Source: an uncultured Planctomycetaceae bacterium
GTDB lineage: Bacteria > Planctomycetota > Planctomycetia > Planctomycetales > Planctomycetaceae
Length of the DNA stretch: 64,000 bases
Direction: 5' to 3'
Assembly (NCBI GenBank): GCA_903896675.1
Contig: CAITYU010000124.1
Coordinates: 1 to 64,000, forward strand
Shown here: in pieces, positions 1,431 to 55,870 of the stretch
How positions within the stretch are numbered: the first letter of the stretch is position 1
Layout: the number at the start of each line of letters is the position of its first letter
Position numbers and translations under genes: made by a program
The notes under the pieces: generated by a model
Told to the model about the DNA's origin: nothing
Databases searched by the model: none
Seen by the model: the letters and a program-made list of their open reading frames with translations, nothing else

Positions 1431-1992
1431 GCTGATACCCCTGTTCAACCAGTATCTCGGCCAGCCGTCGTCTGGCCCGCGACAATCGCATGTCAATCGC
1501 CGCGGCCGAGCAGTTCATCACTGCTGCCATCTGCGCCGCTGACCAGTCCATCGAATACTTCATCACCAGCACCCGGCGGTCGTCCTCGTTCAGCTCTGCC
1601 AGAGCAGACCGGATCTGCTGCTGACGCTCGTGAAGTTCGGCCGTCTGTCGCGGATCCACTGCGCCGCCGGTGAAGTCATCCAGTCCGGGCAACAGACTGC
1701 AGCCACTGCTTTTACGCCGAGCCACATCCCGCAGCCAGTTCTGCCCCACCCGCAGCAACCACGCCCGCAGATCCCGCACCGGTTCACCCTGATGATCGTG
1801 CAGGCGCACAAAGGCCTCCTGCACCGCATCATGGGCGCGTTCAGGGTCGCTGCACATGGAGTAAAAAATTGCCCACAGTTCACGCGAATTTTCGCGATAA
1901 AAGCAGGCAATCTCTTCGTTCCGTGCCGGCACACCTGCCGCTGCGGATTCCGAACTGGTCATGCAGTCCTTCCAGACGTCAGAAAACGCCAC
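1423..1992 (-). CDS. RNA polymerase sigma factor, ECF/sigma-70 family
   Basis: Region 2 (AHDAVQEAFVRLHDH...LRAWLLRVGQNWLRD) and region 4 (LNEDDRRVLVMKYSMDWSAAQMAAVMNCSAAAIDMRLSRARRRL). Confidence 0.9.
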   Translation of the reverse strand: MAFSDVWKDCMTSSESAAAGVPARNEEIACFYRENSRELWAIFYSMCSDPERAHDAVQEAFVRLHDHQGEPVRDLRAWLLRVGQNWLRDVARRKSSGCSLLPGLDDFTGGAVDPRQTAELHERQQQIRSALAELNEDDRRVLVMKYSMDWSAAQMAAVMNCSAAAIDMRLSRARRRLAEILVEQGYQHE

Positions 1993-35104: not shown

Positions 35105-37270
35105 TCAGTGCACCGACACAAACTCGCTGCTGTTCAGATAGGCCCACAACATGTCCTCAGCCGCTGTCTTCATGGCATCCTGAGCCGTCATTGTCCGAGC
35201 CAGTGTTCGGTAGCGATTGCGGAATACCCGCTCCTCCTGCTCCGTCGGCTCACGGTTCAGAGTTCCCAGAGCCAGATGCCGCAGCGAAGCAGCAACTGCT
35301 GGACCATCACCCTGACCCCCATTCACAGCGGTGGCCGCCGCCTGCGGAATGGACTGTTCCAGATCCCGGCCGTTCATCATCAGCAGCGCCTGCGAGATAT
35401 CGCTGCCAAAGACCAGCGACTCTTCATTGTCGTCCGTACCCCACGCTCGCACAAACTGCTCCACCCACTCACGACGATGCCGAATACCCCCACCCTCTGC
35501 ACCCGCCTCACCACGCCCGGACAACGACACAATCGCAGTCCGCAGCGAATCATACACCTGCTCAGGACCCATCGGACGCGGATAGATGCGAGAAAACAAA
35601 GGCATGCCACCTTCCTGTGGATCATCCACTGCCACCAGCGACTCCGCCTGCTCACTGGATAACCCGAATGCCCGCGACATCGCGACCCAGCTCATCAGCC
35701 GCCGCATGTCGTAACCGGATTCCGCAAATGATCTCGTCAGGTAATCAAACAGCTCCGGATGACTGGCCGGATTGTGCGGACCAATATCGTCAATCGGATT
35801 TGTAAACCCATACCCGAAAAACATCGCCCATACCCGGTTCACCATCGCGCGCGCGACCTGCAGCTGGTCGTCTTCCGCCAGCAACCGCGCCAGTGCCGCA
35901 CGACGGGAACCCGCAGACTCCGCCACACGACCATCAAACTCCGGCAACACGGCCTTCTGCTGACCACGCAGGTTTTCGTAAAACGTCATTCCCTCGCGAC
36001 CATCATCCCGCAGCGACCAGACCGCAGAACCCGGCAGAGAATCGGGACTTTCCACACGCTCACGCACAGCCTGCTTGAAGAACGCATTCAGCGACCAGAA
36101 CTCGTCCTGCCGTCGCTCTCGCGCAAAAGGATGATCGTGGCACTGAGTACAATGCACCTGACGCCCCAGAAACAGCCGAGCCGTTACGGCGGTTGCCGGA
36201 GTCGCCTGATCGTTCAGATGCGCCAGCAGAAAATTGGTCTCACCCTGACGATCACTGCGACCCTCCGCCGCGATCAAACGGCCCACCGTCTCCATCCACG
36301 GCCGATTGCCTGCAAACTGCTCCCGCAGAAAACTCCACAGAGAATCCTGATCCACTTTACGAGCATTGCTGCGACCAATCAGCAGATTGGTCCACAGCTC
36401 AGCCAGATTCTCTGCCGTTGACCCATCCGCAACCAACTGACTGATCAACTGCTGACGCTTCCGCGAATCCTGCGACTTCACAAAATCATCCGCTTCCGAC
36501 TCCGTCGAAATTCGCCCGGTCAGCACCAGATGTGTTCGCCGCACCCACTCATAATCATTCGCAGACACCGACGGTTGCACACCGTTCTCTGACCAGCCGC
36601 GTTCCAGCAATCGGTCAATTTCTGCGATGACAGCAGTATCCGACAACAGATCCGAAGGCTCAGTTGACTGCACCGGAGCAACCTGAGTGGCGACTTTCTC
36701 TGAATCGTTCGCAACGCCTGACGCCTCACCCGCACTCAGGCCATGCAGCTGCAACGGCGCTCGCTCCGGAACAGGCAAAGTATCAGCCGCCTGCGAGACA
36801 ACAACGTCGGATGGTGTCGCCTGCTGAGACGGAACCGCCACCGGAGCTGTCTGCACAAGCACCGCAGCCACATCATGCTGACGCCCCGCCAGCCAGCCAA
36901 ACACCCCCGCCAGCAACAAACAACACACCGCCCCTGCCGCCATCAGCCAGCGACGCCCGGCCGACAGCCGAACAGGCTCCGGCTCGGCAAACAGCAGCTC
37001 CGGGTCTGACACACAGGCCACCGCAGCAGCTTCCAGACCCAGTCTGTGATTCGGATCCACCAGAATGCGACCAGCGTCCCACGCCAGGCAGGCATGCACC
37101 TGCATAAATCGCACAAACAGGGACAACAGCGCACCGTCACCACGCAGCAGTTGCTGCAGTCGCTGAAACTGCTCGTCCCCCAGATCACCTTCACACCACA
37201 GATTCGCCAGCCGCAGCAGCTCATCGGATTCCGGTGACTGACCGACCGGCTCGGCACTCTGCGTTATCAT
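35105..37270 (-). CDS. anti-sigma-like TM N-terminus fused to DUF1549/DUF1553-type protein with CxxCH motif
   Basis: N-term ELLRLANLWCEGDLGDEQFQRLQQLLRGDGALLSLFVRFMQVHACLAWD + TM WLMAAGAVCCLLLAGVFGWLAG; RLFLGRQVHCTQCHDHPFARERRQDEFWSLNAFFKQAV; VNRVWAMFFGYGFTNPIDDIGPHNPASHPELFDYL. Confidence 0.88.
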   Translation of the reverse strand: MITQSAEPVGQSPESDELLRLANLWCEGDLGDEQFQRLQQLLRGDGALLSLFVRFMQVHACLAWDAGRILVDPNHRLGLEAAAVACVSDPELLFAEPEPVRLSAGRRWLMAAGAVCCLLLAGVFGWLAGRQHDVAAVLVQTAPVAVPSQQATPSDVVVSQAADTLPVPERAPLQLHGLSAGEASGVANDSEKVATQVAPVQSTEPSDLLSDTAVIAEIDRLLERGWSENGVQPSVSANDYEWVRRTHLVLTGRISTESEADDFVKSQDSRKRQQLISQLVADGSTAENLAELWTNLLIGRSNARKVDQDSLWSFLREQFAGNRPWMETVGRLIAAEGRSDRQGETNFLLAHLNDQATPATAVTARLFLGRQVHCTQCHDHPFARERRQDEFWSLNAFFKQAVRERVESPDSLPGSAVWSLRDDGREGMTFYENLRGQQKAVLPEFDGRVAESAGSRRAALARLLAEDDQLQVARAMVNRVWAMFFGYGFTNPIDDIGPHNPASHPELFDYLTRSFAESGYDMRRLMSWVAMSRAFGLSSEQAESLVAVDDPQEGGMPLFSRIYPRPMGPEQVYDSLRTAIVSLSGRGEAGAEGGGIRHRREWVEQFVRAWGTDDNEESLVFGSDISQALLMMNGRDLEQSIPQAAATAVNGGQGDGPAVAASLRHLALGTLNREPTEQEERVFRNRYRTLARTMTAQDAMKTAAEDMLWAYLNSSEFVSVH
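36137..36151 (-). other. CxxCH (CTQCH) haem-c-type motif codons in the anti-sigma-DUF1549 fusion
   Basis: gtggcactgagtaca, reverse complement TGTACTCAGTGCCAC = CTQCH. Confidence 0.85.
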
Positions 37271-37833
37271 GTCGCACCCCCACCCGCCAGTCGCCGCCGC
37301 ACACACTCCACAAGCATCCGCCGAATTCGACCCAGAGACTGATACACGGAATTTGCTGGACGACCCAGATCACCCGCCACACGGTCGCCACTGGACCCCG
37401 CCGCATACCTCCGACGAATCAGATCCTGATCCGCCTGACGCAGTCGACCCACACAATGCACCAGAGCCTCGCGGTGCTCATCCAGATCCAGTTGCTCCGC
37501 TTCCAGCTTCTCTGCAATCAACTCCATCACATCGTCATCCAGCAACTGCACTCGATGGAAACTGCGTCGACGAAATCGCAGCACTTCCAGACGAGCAATA
37601 GCGCGAGCCCAGGCAAGAAAGTTTGTGCCGGAACGAAACTGAGCCCACTTGCTCAGAATCACGACATTCGCTTCCTGCAACACCTCTTCAGCATCCGCTG
37701 GCGAATGCACCATCGGCAGAATCGTCATGTAAAGCGGGCGCTGCACCGTGGTAAACAGACGCACGAACTCTTCGTTGGGTCCGCCTGCTCCCGCCCCGGA
37801 CGATTCGCTGCCGTCAGCTGATGCGCCAGTCAT
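37267..37833 (-). CDS. RNA polymerase sigma factor, ECF-type (Rhodopirellula/Verrucomicrobium-like)
   Basis: NEEFVRLFTTVQRPLYMTILPMVHSPADAEEVLQEANVVILSKWAQFRSGTNFLAWARAIARLEVLRFRRR; region 4 QADQDLIRRRYAAGSSGDRVAGDLGRPANSVYQSLGRIRRML. Confidence 0.92.
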   Translation of the reverse strand: MTGASADGSESSGAGAGGPNEEFVRLFTTVQRPLYMTILPMVHSPADAEEVLQEANVVILSKWAQFRSGTNFLAWARAIARLEVLRFRRRSFHRVQLLDDDVMELIAEKLEAEQLDLDEHREALVHCVGRLRQADQDLIRRRYAAGSSGDRVAGDLGRPANSVYQSLGRIRRMLVECVRRRLAGGGAT

Positions 37834-37857: not shown

Positions 37858-37885
37858 ATGCCCGGTCTCAAGCGAGACCGGGCAT
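37858..37885. terminator. perfect 12-bp hairpin between the DUF1501 gene and the ECF sigma operon; terminator or leader element
   Basis: ATGCCCGGTCTC-AAGC-GAGACCGGGCAT; only TTT follows on the minus strand. Confidence 0.65.
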
Positions 37886-37941: not shown

Positions 37942-39243
37942 TCAGCCAATCAGTTCCTGAATCGGTGTCCCACCATTGGCCAGTTTCATCGGACGACCGC
38001 GCTTCGATGTGTGCACCGTGTTAATCGGAATTCCCATCGCATGCGCCACAGTTGCCCAGATGTCGCCCGGCAGATACGCCTTGCTGCCGTCCGCAATCTG
38101 CACACCGTCCTTGTCAGTTGCACCAACCGCCTGACCATTCTTCAGACCACCACCACCCAGCATCACACTCCATGATGCCGCCCAGTGGTCACGACCGACG
38201 TCCTGATTGATCCGCGGAGTACGTCCGAATTCACCCATCCACACCAAAACCGTGTTGTCCAGCATTCCACGAGCCTTCAGGTCGGCCGTGATCGCTGCGA
38301 TACCCTTATCAAGCTGCGGCAGACGCTGGTTCTTCAGAGTATCGAAGACGCCAGCATGCAGGTCCCAGCCACCCATGTTCACTTCCACAAACGGTACACC
38401 CACCTGCACAAGGCGACGAGCCATCAGCAGGCCCTGGCCAAAACCGTTGCGTCCATAGGCATCACGAGTCACATCGGACTCGGCTTCCAGGCCCAGCATC
38501 GGATCAGATTTTGCCACGTCAAAGGCCGCCATCTGACGGGATGTCATCAGGTTCACGGCATTCCGGTAAACGTCCTGATGAGCCTTCGGGAGCTCGCCGC
38601 GACGGGAATTCATGAATCCCGCTTCGATCTCGTCCAGCATCGTCAGGCGAGCACCCAGACGCTGACGGCTCTCCTCTGATGGCTCGTTCCGAATCCGACC
38701 CGTGTTGTCAACGACGAACGGAGCATGAGTCATACCGAGGAAGCCAGCCTGGCCGGCACCACCGTCCACAGACACGAATGCCGGGATCTCCAGAGCCTTG
38801 CGGTTGCGGCCAATCTCGTAGCTGACCACAGAACCAAATGTCGGATGCACCACCGTCGGATTGGGCACGTAGGAAGTCTGCATGTAATAACGGCCACGAC
38901 CGTGGTCGGCTTCCCGAGTACTCATGGAGCGAACCAGGGACAGGTCGCCGAACACCTTCGCCGTCTCCGGCATGTGCTCGGAAATCTGCACGCCCGGTGC
39001 CGCTGTGTCAATCGGCTGAAACTCGCCGCCGTTCTTCGAACCCGGCTTCAGGTCCCAGATGTCGATCGTCGGAGGACCACCGCCCATCCACATCAGAATA
39101 CAGGACTTCTGACTGCTTTTCAGTACGTCAGCGTTGGCCTGCACATGCGACAGAAAATTCATGGCCGGGATCGTTGCGGCTGCCGTCGCCATGTGCTGCA
39201 TGAAATGGCGACGATTCATTCCGTAGTTGTTCCAGAGTGACAT
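37942..39243 (-). CDS. DUF1501 domain-containing protein
   Basis: [102 protein letters not shown]. Confidence 0.94.
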
Positions 39244-39318: not shown

Positions 39319-41013
39319 TCAGTGAATAAAGATGAACTCGTTCGAATTCAGCAGTGCCCAGAACATGTCCTGATATCCATTCAGCTTCGCAGCTCCATAA
39401 CGAGCCAGAGCCTTTTGCATTTTCGTCATTTCAGCTCGAGTCGGCTTGCGAGTCAGAGCGGCAAGATACAGGTCGTTGATCTTCTGAGTCTCTGCACCAG
39501 GACTGCTCATCTGCTCAAACAGAAAACTGCCACGCTCAACGCTGCAGGCCTTATCGATCAACTCACTGTTCATCATCATCAGCGCCTGAGGAATCGTGCC
39601 GTTGAAAGTGGTCGACTCGTCGTTCTCGTCGTTGTCAAACGCCACCACAAACTGCTGCATCCAGCGACGTCGCTGCTCCTCCTGAGCACTCCAGCTGCCA
39701 TTGCCCGACTGATGAGCATTGCTGGCCACAATCAGCGAATCATACAGCTGCTCGGCCTGCATCGACTTCAGATACATGTGACTGAACAACGGCATCTCAC
39801 CAGCCGCCGGATCATCAATCCGGTTCTTTTCACCGTACTGACTGCTGAGCTGGTAGGCTTCAGTGGAGACAATCCAGCGAATCAACTGCTTCACATCATA
39901 GTTGGCCGCCACAAACTCCTGCGACAACCGCTTCAGCAGCTCAGGATGACTGGGCGGATTGTGCGGACCCATGTCGTCGACCGGGCGAGTAAACCCGTAG
40001 CCGAAGAAATGACTCCACGTGCGATTCACCATGGCCTGTGCCAGCTGTGCTGGCTCGTCGCCAGCAGGCTCCGTAATCAACTTCGCCAGCTCAGCACGCC
40101 GGTCCACACCAACACCCGGATCCACCTCACGACCCTGAAAACGCGGGAAAGCCACCTGCATCATCCCACTGCGCTTTTCGTAATACACCGGACCAGTGAA
40201 TTCCTTCCACACAACCTCCGAGTAATCATCGACCTGCCGACCCGTCTTCGGATCCAGCTTGCGGTGATCACGCTTGTCAACCTGCCGAAAGAAACTGTTG
40301 AACTCCCAGAACTGATCCTGCTGCCACTTGTTGAACGGATGGTTGTGACACTGAGTACACTGGACCTGCAGGCCAAGAAACAGCCGAGTCGTCATGGCTG
40401 TCAGCTGCACTGCATCGTCCGGCATCTGCATCTGAGCCAGAATGTAGTTGACAGCACCGTTCTCTTCGTAATGACCGGATGCCGTCAGAATATCGACCAC
40501 AATCTCATTCCACGGACGATTCTTCGCAAACGCCTCACGATAGAACTTTTCCATACCCGACCGACTGACACGCTGCGGTGCACCCCGACCGATCGAATTG
40601 TTCGCCCAGATGGTTGTGAAATTCCGAACATAGTCCTCGTTTTCCAGCAGAACATCCACCAGCATGGCACGCTTACGAGGATTCTTGTCGGCCAGAAACT
40701 GCCGCGCTTCAGTCAGAGTCGGTATGCGCCCGACCAGATCCAGATACACCCGCCGAACCCACTCCTCATCAGAGGCCAACGGTGATGCCTCGATCTCGTT
40801 GTCCGTCCAGCCCTGCCGAATCTGCTGATCAATAAACTCACCCAGCGAAACCTCCGCACCCGCCACCCCGGACTCATCCGCCGCCTTGCCCGCCACCACC
40901 TTGTCAGCCGCCAACTCGTCAGCCACCAGTTCGCCATGCAGCGACAGCAGCGCAACCGCAGGCAGCACCACAAATGAAAACCACACTGCGGAATTTACCG
41001 ATCGCCGATTCAT
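39319..41013 (-). CDS. DUF1549/DUF1553-type protein with CxxCH motif
   Basis: FIDQQIRQGWTDNEIEASPLASDEEWVRRVYLDLVGRIPTLTEARQFLAD; RLFLGLQVQCTQCHNHPFNKWQQDQFWEFNSFFRQVD; VNRTWSHFFGYGFTRPVDDMGPHNPPSHPELL. Confidence 0.94.
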   Translation of the reverse strand: MNRRSVNSAVWFSFVVLPAVALLSLHGELVADELAADKVVAGKAADESGVAGAEVSLGEFIDQQIRQGWTDNEIEASPLASDEEWVRRVYLDLVGRIPTLTEARQFLADKNPRKRAMLVDVLLENEDYVRNFTTIWANNSIGRGAPQRVSRSGMEKFYREAFAKNRPWNEIVVDILTASGHYEENGAVNYILAQMQMPDDAVQLTAMTTRLFLGLQVQCTQCHNHPFNKWQQDQFWEFNSFFRQVDKRDHRKLDPKTGRQVDDYSEVVWKEFTGPVYYEKRSGMMQVAFPRFQGREVDPGVGVDRRAELAKLITEPAGDEPAQLAQAMVNRTWSHFFGYGFTRPVDDMGPHNPPSHPELLKRLSQEFVAANYDVKQLIRWIVSTEAYQLSSQYGEKNRIDDPAAGEMPLFSHMYLKSMQAEQLYDSLIVASNAHQSGNGSWSAQEEQRRRWMQQFVVAFDNDENDESTTFNGTIPQALMMMNSELIDKACSVERGSFLFEQMSSPGAETQKINDLYLAALTRKPTRAEMTKMQKALARYGAAKLNGYQDMFWALLNSNEFIFIH

Positions 41014-41384
41014 ACCAGCTCCACGCACTGCACGTGACTTCAATTCCTGAACCACCGCGACAACGCACTTCTTACCAGCTTACCCATTAAAACAGCCGCC
41101 GTTGAACAATTCTTCGCCAAAATCCACCGCGATTTTGCCAAAAAATCCCCTTTTTTTGCCTGCTGCCGCAGCGAAAACACCGCTGCACTCGAGAATAACG
41201 ACTGCATTGACACTCACAGCACCAAACCAAATTCGCCCCACTTAACGCGCAACCCCGTGCGAATGTTCGCCGAAATGTTGCAAAAAAACCGAGTGAAACC
41301 GAAATCTGATCAAAAGTACACACTCCAGAAAGCCCCAAACACGGGCCAAATCAGCAAACATCCTGAATTAAGGAATTGCGGATC

Positions 41385-55220: not shown

Positions 55221-55870
55221 TAATTCTGAAATTCGTCATTCCGAAAATCATAACCCAGTTGCTGAATGATCTCACCGAATTTTCCCAAAGCCCGACCGTA
55301 ACGTCTGCGAGACGCCTCTTCACTGATACCCAGTCGCTCAGCAATTCTGATGTGGGATAATGATTCGTAGTGCACCGCCAGCAGAATCTGCCTTTTTTCC
55401 TCCTCCATCGACTCCAGCGCCTGATGCACCATCAGGATTTTTTCGGCCTGCAGCAGACTCTGAGCCGGGGACAGGATGGAATCCGCCAGCAGCTCTGCCA
55501 GTGCCAGCGTCGATGAATCCCCTTTGTCCAGAGACCTCTCACGCCGAGGATCGCGCTTCTCTCTGTCCAGATGGTATCGACAGATCTCATACAGACGATG
55601 ACCGACCAGTAACTGCAGACACCGCAGCGGACTCAGCGTCCGCAGATAGTCCGCGGCCGACCCCATCCCCTGCATAGCCACTTCCTGGATCACGTCCGAA
55701 CTGTCAATCCGCGGCAGCAGAAAACCACAGATTCTGCTGCGCAGATAATCCTTCAACTGCGGACGATACTTCTGCACCAGGCGCGCGAAGGCCTCATGGT
55801 CACCCCGCAGAGCAGACTCAAACCACTGACTTTCATCGTCGCCTTCCTCGCCCGCTGTGATATTCGGCAC
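55220..55870 (-). CDS. RNA polymerase sigma factor, ECF/sigma-70 family
   Basis: FARLVQKYRPQLKDYLRSRI...DSSDVIQEVAM; region 4 MEEEKRQILLAVHYESLSHIRIAERLGISEEASRRRYGRALGKFGEII. Confidence 0.9.
   Translation of the reverse strand: MPNITAGEEGDDESQWFESALRGDHEAFARLVQKYRPQLKDYLRSRICGFLLPRIDSSDVIQEVAMQGMGSAADYLRTLSPLRCLQLLVGHRLYEICRYHLDREKRDPRRERSLDKGDSSTLALAELLADSILSPAQSLLQAEKILMVHQALESMEEEKRQILLAVHYESLSHIRIAERLGISEEASRRRYGRALGKFGEIIQQLGYDFRNDEFQN

Follow-up and report, generated by a model that had tools for sequence, protein, structure and literature searches.

A probable autoregulated ECF sigma switch in a planctomycete family, with a putative sensor duplicated from the cluster's own DUF1549/DUF1553 protein

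Why should a planctomycete gene for an ECF sigma factor overlap a gene for a membrane-anchored protein that ends in DUF1549 and DUF1553 domains? Together with DUF1501, these are among the most multiplied protein families of planctomycetes (84 DUF1549 matches in this 5.9-Mb genome), and the function of their members has been described as wholly unknown (PMC5615132). With a probability of roughly two in three, we read the locus as a self-contained, autoregulated ECF sigma/anti-sigma switch whose sensor would be derived by duplication from its own structural protein. Such a switch, responding to a DUF1549/DUF1553 protein and having a defined promoter, would provide a natural reporter for what a protein of this kind binds or does.

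The overlapping genes belong to a four-gene unit within the 64-kb window (the whole stretch of DNA analysed), all on the minus strand and in the order DUF1549/DUF1553–DUF1501–sigma–fusion. The first gene (39319-41055, start codon uncertain) encodes a secreted DUF1549/DUF1553 protein, the structural paralogue of the putative sensor (PF07583, 146.9 bits; PF07587, 136.3 bits). It is followed by genes for a DUF1501 protein (37942-39243; PF07394, 313.9 bits), an ECF sigma factor of 188 aa (37267-37833) and a membrane-anchored, sensor/anti-sigma-like fusion protein of 721 aa (35105-37270), the last described from profile matches, conservation and an AF2 model. This unit is larger than the two-gene pair reported in the first-pass annotation, which placed and dissected the sigma and fusion genes correctly but overlooked the four-gene cluster, its promoter and the origin of the sensor by duplication.

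A total of 171 genomes from 58 genera of the same planctomycete family were searched, and loci were read from about 50 genera. The gene order is kept in most of the sampled genera (dozens of genera, with Gimesia, Schlesneria, Planctomicrobium, Thalassoglobus and Fuerstiella as the named relatives, which marks the family as Planctomycetaceae-like), and the DUF1501 gene is in the cluster wherever the contig extends far enough. The cluster is missing from some genera: no match to the N-terminal domain (NTD) of the fusion was found in 9 of 27 genomes that had been chosen for their poor match, some of which are incomplete. Across a phylum sample of 296 genomes, matches extending to the N-terminus of the fusion were confined to this family; outside it only the DUF1549/DUF1553 part was matched, with the transmembrane (TM) and linker region matched as well in one genome (L208). 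One fusion orthologue, in genome G101 (L036/L057), carries an in-frame TAG that interrupts its DUF1553 part, and the cluster around it is otherwise kept.

The sigma factor falls into the TIGR02989 (gvs1) family (136.3 bits against a cutoff of 124.55), and in profile searches Sigma70_r2 scored above its cutoff and r4_2 slightly below. Its stop codon and the start codon of the fusion gene (ATG at 37270) share the sequence ATGA, which confirms the overlap seen by the first-pass annotation and sets it at 4 nt. The same overlap is possible from a start codon in 44 of 63 fetched orthologues, a count that is favoured by the choice of the start nearest the overlap in each orthologue. All 63 adjoin a sigma gene and all keep the CxxCH motif described below; therefore, the arrangement of sigma and fusion is not due to chance. 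Two further ECF-like sigma matches in the window, at 1456-1908 (-) and 55289-55795 (-), lie below the TIGR02989 cutoff.

The fusion protein, read along the minus strand, opens with an anti-sigma-like three-helix domain, the NTD (aa 13-69, 37064-37234), recognised from conservation, AF2 and Foldseek. A predicted fourth helix region (aa 73-94, 36989-37054; moderate AF2 confidence) leads to a single TM helix (aa 106-129, 36884-36955), which corresponds to the sole hydrophobic segment (aa 107-130) before the DUF1549 part; exactly one such segment precedes this part in 60 of 61 orthologues. Beyond a disordered linker rich in Pro, Ala and Val (aa 131-210, 36641-36880; pLDDT <50 for aa 131-196) lies the DUF1549 (PSCyt2) domain (aa 217-401, 36068-36622; 113.6 bits), which contains the motif CTQCH (aa 374-378, 36137-36151), of the CxxCH form that attaches haem in c-type cytochromes, running on to H380-P381, and then the DUF1553 (PSD1) domain, with its Pfam-matched part from aa 456 (35525-35905; 101.7 bits). 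Both domains are above their Pfam gathering scores, and the FecR domain PF04773 was not found in the fusion by profile search. The domain order first read from the letters is thus upheld by profiles, the AF2 model, hydrophobicity and composition.

In the AF2 model the NTD consists of three confident helices (pLDDT mostly >90), succeeded by the fourth helix and the TM helix; H59 and L62 are invariant among orthologues, and G60 and W64 nearly so. The predicted domain fits the class I anti-sigma plan of a three-helix bundle plus a fourth helix and a TM helix (PMC7406223). Moreover, both Foldseek searches ranked RsiW and MucA, by probability, first among the short helical matches. The match to RsiW reached a probability of 0.97 and an rmsd of 1.6 over 48 columns. 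The best Foldseek E was 0.57, which is not significant, so the likeness in fold supports an anti-sigma role without deciding it. Anti-sigma profiles, to which the first-pass annotation had looked for confirmation, gave no family match to the NTD in Pfam, NCBIfam or PDB sequence profiles, and no consistent Pfam match was seen among 54 members. We therefore do not class the fusion as a class I anti-sigma factor and describe it only as working like one. Like RseA, MucA, RsiW and RskA, it is co-encoded with an ECF sigma factor and is predicted to combine three helices and a fourth with one TM helix and a periplasmic domain; unlike them, it has no zinc motif, no profile match and a periplasmic part made of DUF1549 and DUF1553.

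Does the NTD belong with sigma factors? A profile built from the first ~130 aa of the fusion gave just three matches in this genome at E<1e-3, and these genes adjoin the genome's three above-cutoff TIGR02989 sigma genes, one each. The three proteins carry three different periplasmic domains, namely DUF1549/DUF1553, FecR and one further domain. A FecI/FecR-type pair on contig C82 shares with our locus the NTD and TM helix, a TIGR02989 sigma factor and overlapping genes, and differs in having a FecR (PF04773) periplasmic domain in place of DUF1549/DUF1553. The TIGR02989-sigma partner at L040:1230-2309 (+) likewise has the same NTD and TM helix, with a periplasmic domain that appears RseB/LolA-like by eye. 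In other genomes, in part without the fusion and in part of other families, a sigma gene lies just upstream at each of the 29 fetched loci in which the NTD is detectable. An N-terminus unlinked to a sigma gene, which the first-pass annotation had named as a refuting finding, was seen at none of the loci examined. Distances among sigma factors and among NTDs also correlate slightly beyond what the C-terminal part accounts for (partial r 0.27, p 0.0005). Taken together, this linkage, the predicted RsiW/MucA-like fold and the two paralogous pairs of the same genome support the sigma/anti-sigma coupling that had been proposed for the locus.

The linkage could also arise if the fusion were an output with no regulatory role, a membrane-tethered DUF1549/DUF1553 enzyme that the sigma factor simply transcribes; co-transcription alone would produce it. 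Such a relationship is already in print for Rhodopirellula baltica, where the ECF factor RB10049, up-regulated under all three stresses tested, was proposed to regulate the DUF1549/DUF1553 protein RB10051 (PMC2754498). By its published description, that locus resembles ours in linking an ECF sigma factor to a DUF1549/DUF1553 gene. However, the same NTD occurs in other membrane proteins paired with TIGR02989 sigmas, those of the FecR type included, and a mere output would not need a domain of such anti-sigma-like anatomy, which makes this reading improbable.

We favour the switch, and the next question is where its putative sensor came from. In trees, the fused C-terminal parts form the sister group of the cluster's own DUF1549/DUF1553 proteins, and the genome's remaining DUF1549 genes fall outside both clades. 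On this phylogenetic evidence, the fused sensor part arose by duplication of the structural protein encoded in the cluster. The CxxCH motif is found in 63 of 63 fusion orthologues, as CxxCHxHP or in one case CxxCHxxP, and is just as invariant in the non-regulatory structural paralogues. Thus the conservation on which the first-pass annotation built its haem or redox sensor is real but is not specific to the sensor, and the motif alone is no argument for such sensing. If the sensor CxxCH did bind haem c, redox or ligand state could control release of the sigma factor. The motif recurs in the independent sensor type of a sister family (see below) as well as in all 63 sensors here, which argues that the site is constrained in the sensor role too. 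Nevertheless, its equal presence in the paralogue means that the motif may instead have a structural or catalytic role or bind a metal, and the whole fusion model had no cytochrome c among its PDB structure matches (no match was significant, nor was any for the DUF1549/DUF1553 part in a fold search). We regard a haem or redox sensor as unlikely.

The sister relationship of sensor and structural protein also suits a monitor of assembly or stoichiometry, in which the sensor would mimic the structural DUF1549/DUF1553 protein, be bound by excess DUF1501 or another partner, and so read the exported complex and not an outside ligand. The constant company of DUF1501 would be in keeping with this, and the hairpin described below could keep the regulator scarce relative to the structural protein. 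The contact between DUF1549 and DUF1501, though, is putative. Moreover, the sensor has gained the invariant residues H351, N353 and P358 just ahead of CxxCH and has R561 where the structural form conserves H426, changes that could equally mean an altered ligand site. An assembly monitor is possible but doubtful.

If the locus is a switch, which promoter would it act on? Dyads found to be enriched upstream of the first cluster gene yield a family consensus of ACGAACAT-N14/15-GGTWA. An EM fit on 56 mutually dissimilar (non-redundant) upstream regions, from genomes that are related but regions that are otherwise unalike, gave a log-likelihood of 247 against 37-51 in shuffles. Half-split runs started from random words recovered the motif de novo in 5 of 6 cases (3 of 6 splits in an earlier run with fewer restarts), and 120 of 140 held-out regions scored above the 95% null and 110 of 140 above the 99% null. 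The promoter-like dyad GGCGAACAT-N14-GCGTTAAG at 41241-41271 (-) is the highest-scoring site in the window, and the motif carries the AAC noted in ECF -35 boxes (PMC8103513). It was not found ahead of 14 further DUF1549 genes in this genome or upstream of the orthologous DUF1549–DUF1501 pair in 6 genomes without the NTD. The simplest reading of this distribution is positive autoregulation of the cluster by its cognate sigma factor. There are two exceptions: one genus (L206) lacks a recognisable motif despite its sigma gene and diverged fusion, and in one genome (L207) the motif is present with no sigma gene adjoining it. Loci L213, L214, L216, L217, L218 and L220, where the DUF1549–DUF1501 pair is kept and the NTD and motif are absent, amount to a natural loss experiment. 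A large regulon was considered and rejected; a genome-wide count of the strict motif gave 2 sites, one of them at this cluster, and a reversed control gave 3, so no regulon can be claimed.

Between the DUF1501 and sigma genes lies a terminator-like hairpin (37858-37885, minus strand) with a perfect 12-bp stem and a 4-nt loop, followed by TTTGTC. Such a hairpin is present in 47 of 69 non-redundant orthologous DUF1501–sigma gaps against 33 of 345 shuffles, and in 6 of 53 control gaps between the first two cluster genes; its position is conserved across the family and its sequence is not. In the window, 24 nt separate its end from the sigma start. As this leaves no room for a promoter, expression of the regulators probably depends on read-through. 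The idea that the sigma gene is transcribed from a promoter of its own was also rejected, as only 1 of 69 sigma genes has its own copy of the motif. The hairpin is possibly a read-through element that sets the dosage of the regulators.

In the switch that we favour, the NTD would hold the sigma factor at the membrane while the periplasmic DUF1549/DUF1553 part senses a ligand or partner of the DUF1549/DUF1553–DUF1501 system. A signal passed on through the TM helix would free or activate the sigma factor, and we infer binding of sigma by the NTD with a direction of control that may be anti- or pro-sigma. Freed sigma would then drive transcription of the cluster at the ACGAACAT-N14/15-GGTWA promoter, with the sigma and sensor genes probably made in smaller amount through the hairpin. 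Sensors of the BlaR1 type offer a parallel, since their sensor domain is related to the enzyme whose gene they control. BlaR1, however, works via a repressor, a protease and beta-lactam chemistry, whereas the fusion is paired with a sigma factor.

Lastly, a sister family that belongs to the same class has a second fusion (loci L208 and L258-L268). Its sigma factor is a different one (84 bits to TIGR02989, below the cutoff), and the gene overlapping or adjoining the sigma gene encodes a protein in which an unrelated N-terminus is followed by a hydrophobic segment, a linker rich in Pro and a DUF1549/DUF1553 part with CxxCHxHP. These loci group apart from ours, and in the tree the C-terminal part of their sensor clusters with the structural proteins of that family. 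A single origin of all fused sensors was rejected, since forcing them into one clade costs 182 log-likelihood units (p-AU 9e-5), although gene conversion between copies is a possible alternative that could imitate two origins. Apparently, then, to judge from these trees, a different sigma factor and N-terminus were joined independently to a DUF1549/DUF1553 copy in the sister family. A literature search, with the main ECF surveys outside its scope, found no description of the fusion, the promoter or the convergence. Tentatively, and at slightly less than even odds, we propose that two families independently duplicated a structural DUF1549/DUF1553 gene and fused the copy to unrelated anti-sigma-like anchors, turning their own protein into the sensing part of an autoregulated ECF switch through which an exported system monitors itself. 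The apparent convergence suggests that monitoring matters for DUF1549/DUF1553–DUF1501 systems. L211 is also among the loci of this apparently independent fusion, and L212 holds a degenerate version of it in which CARCHDSP replaces CxxCHxHP.
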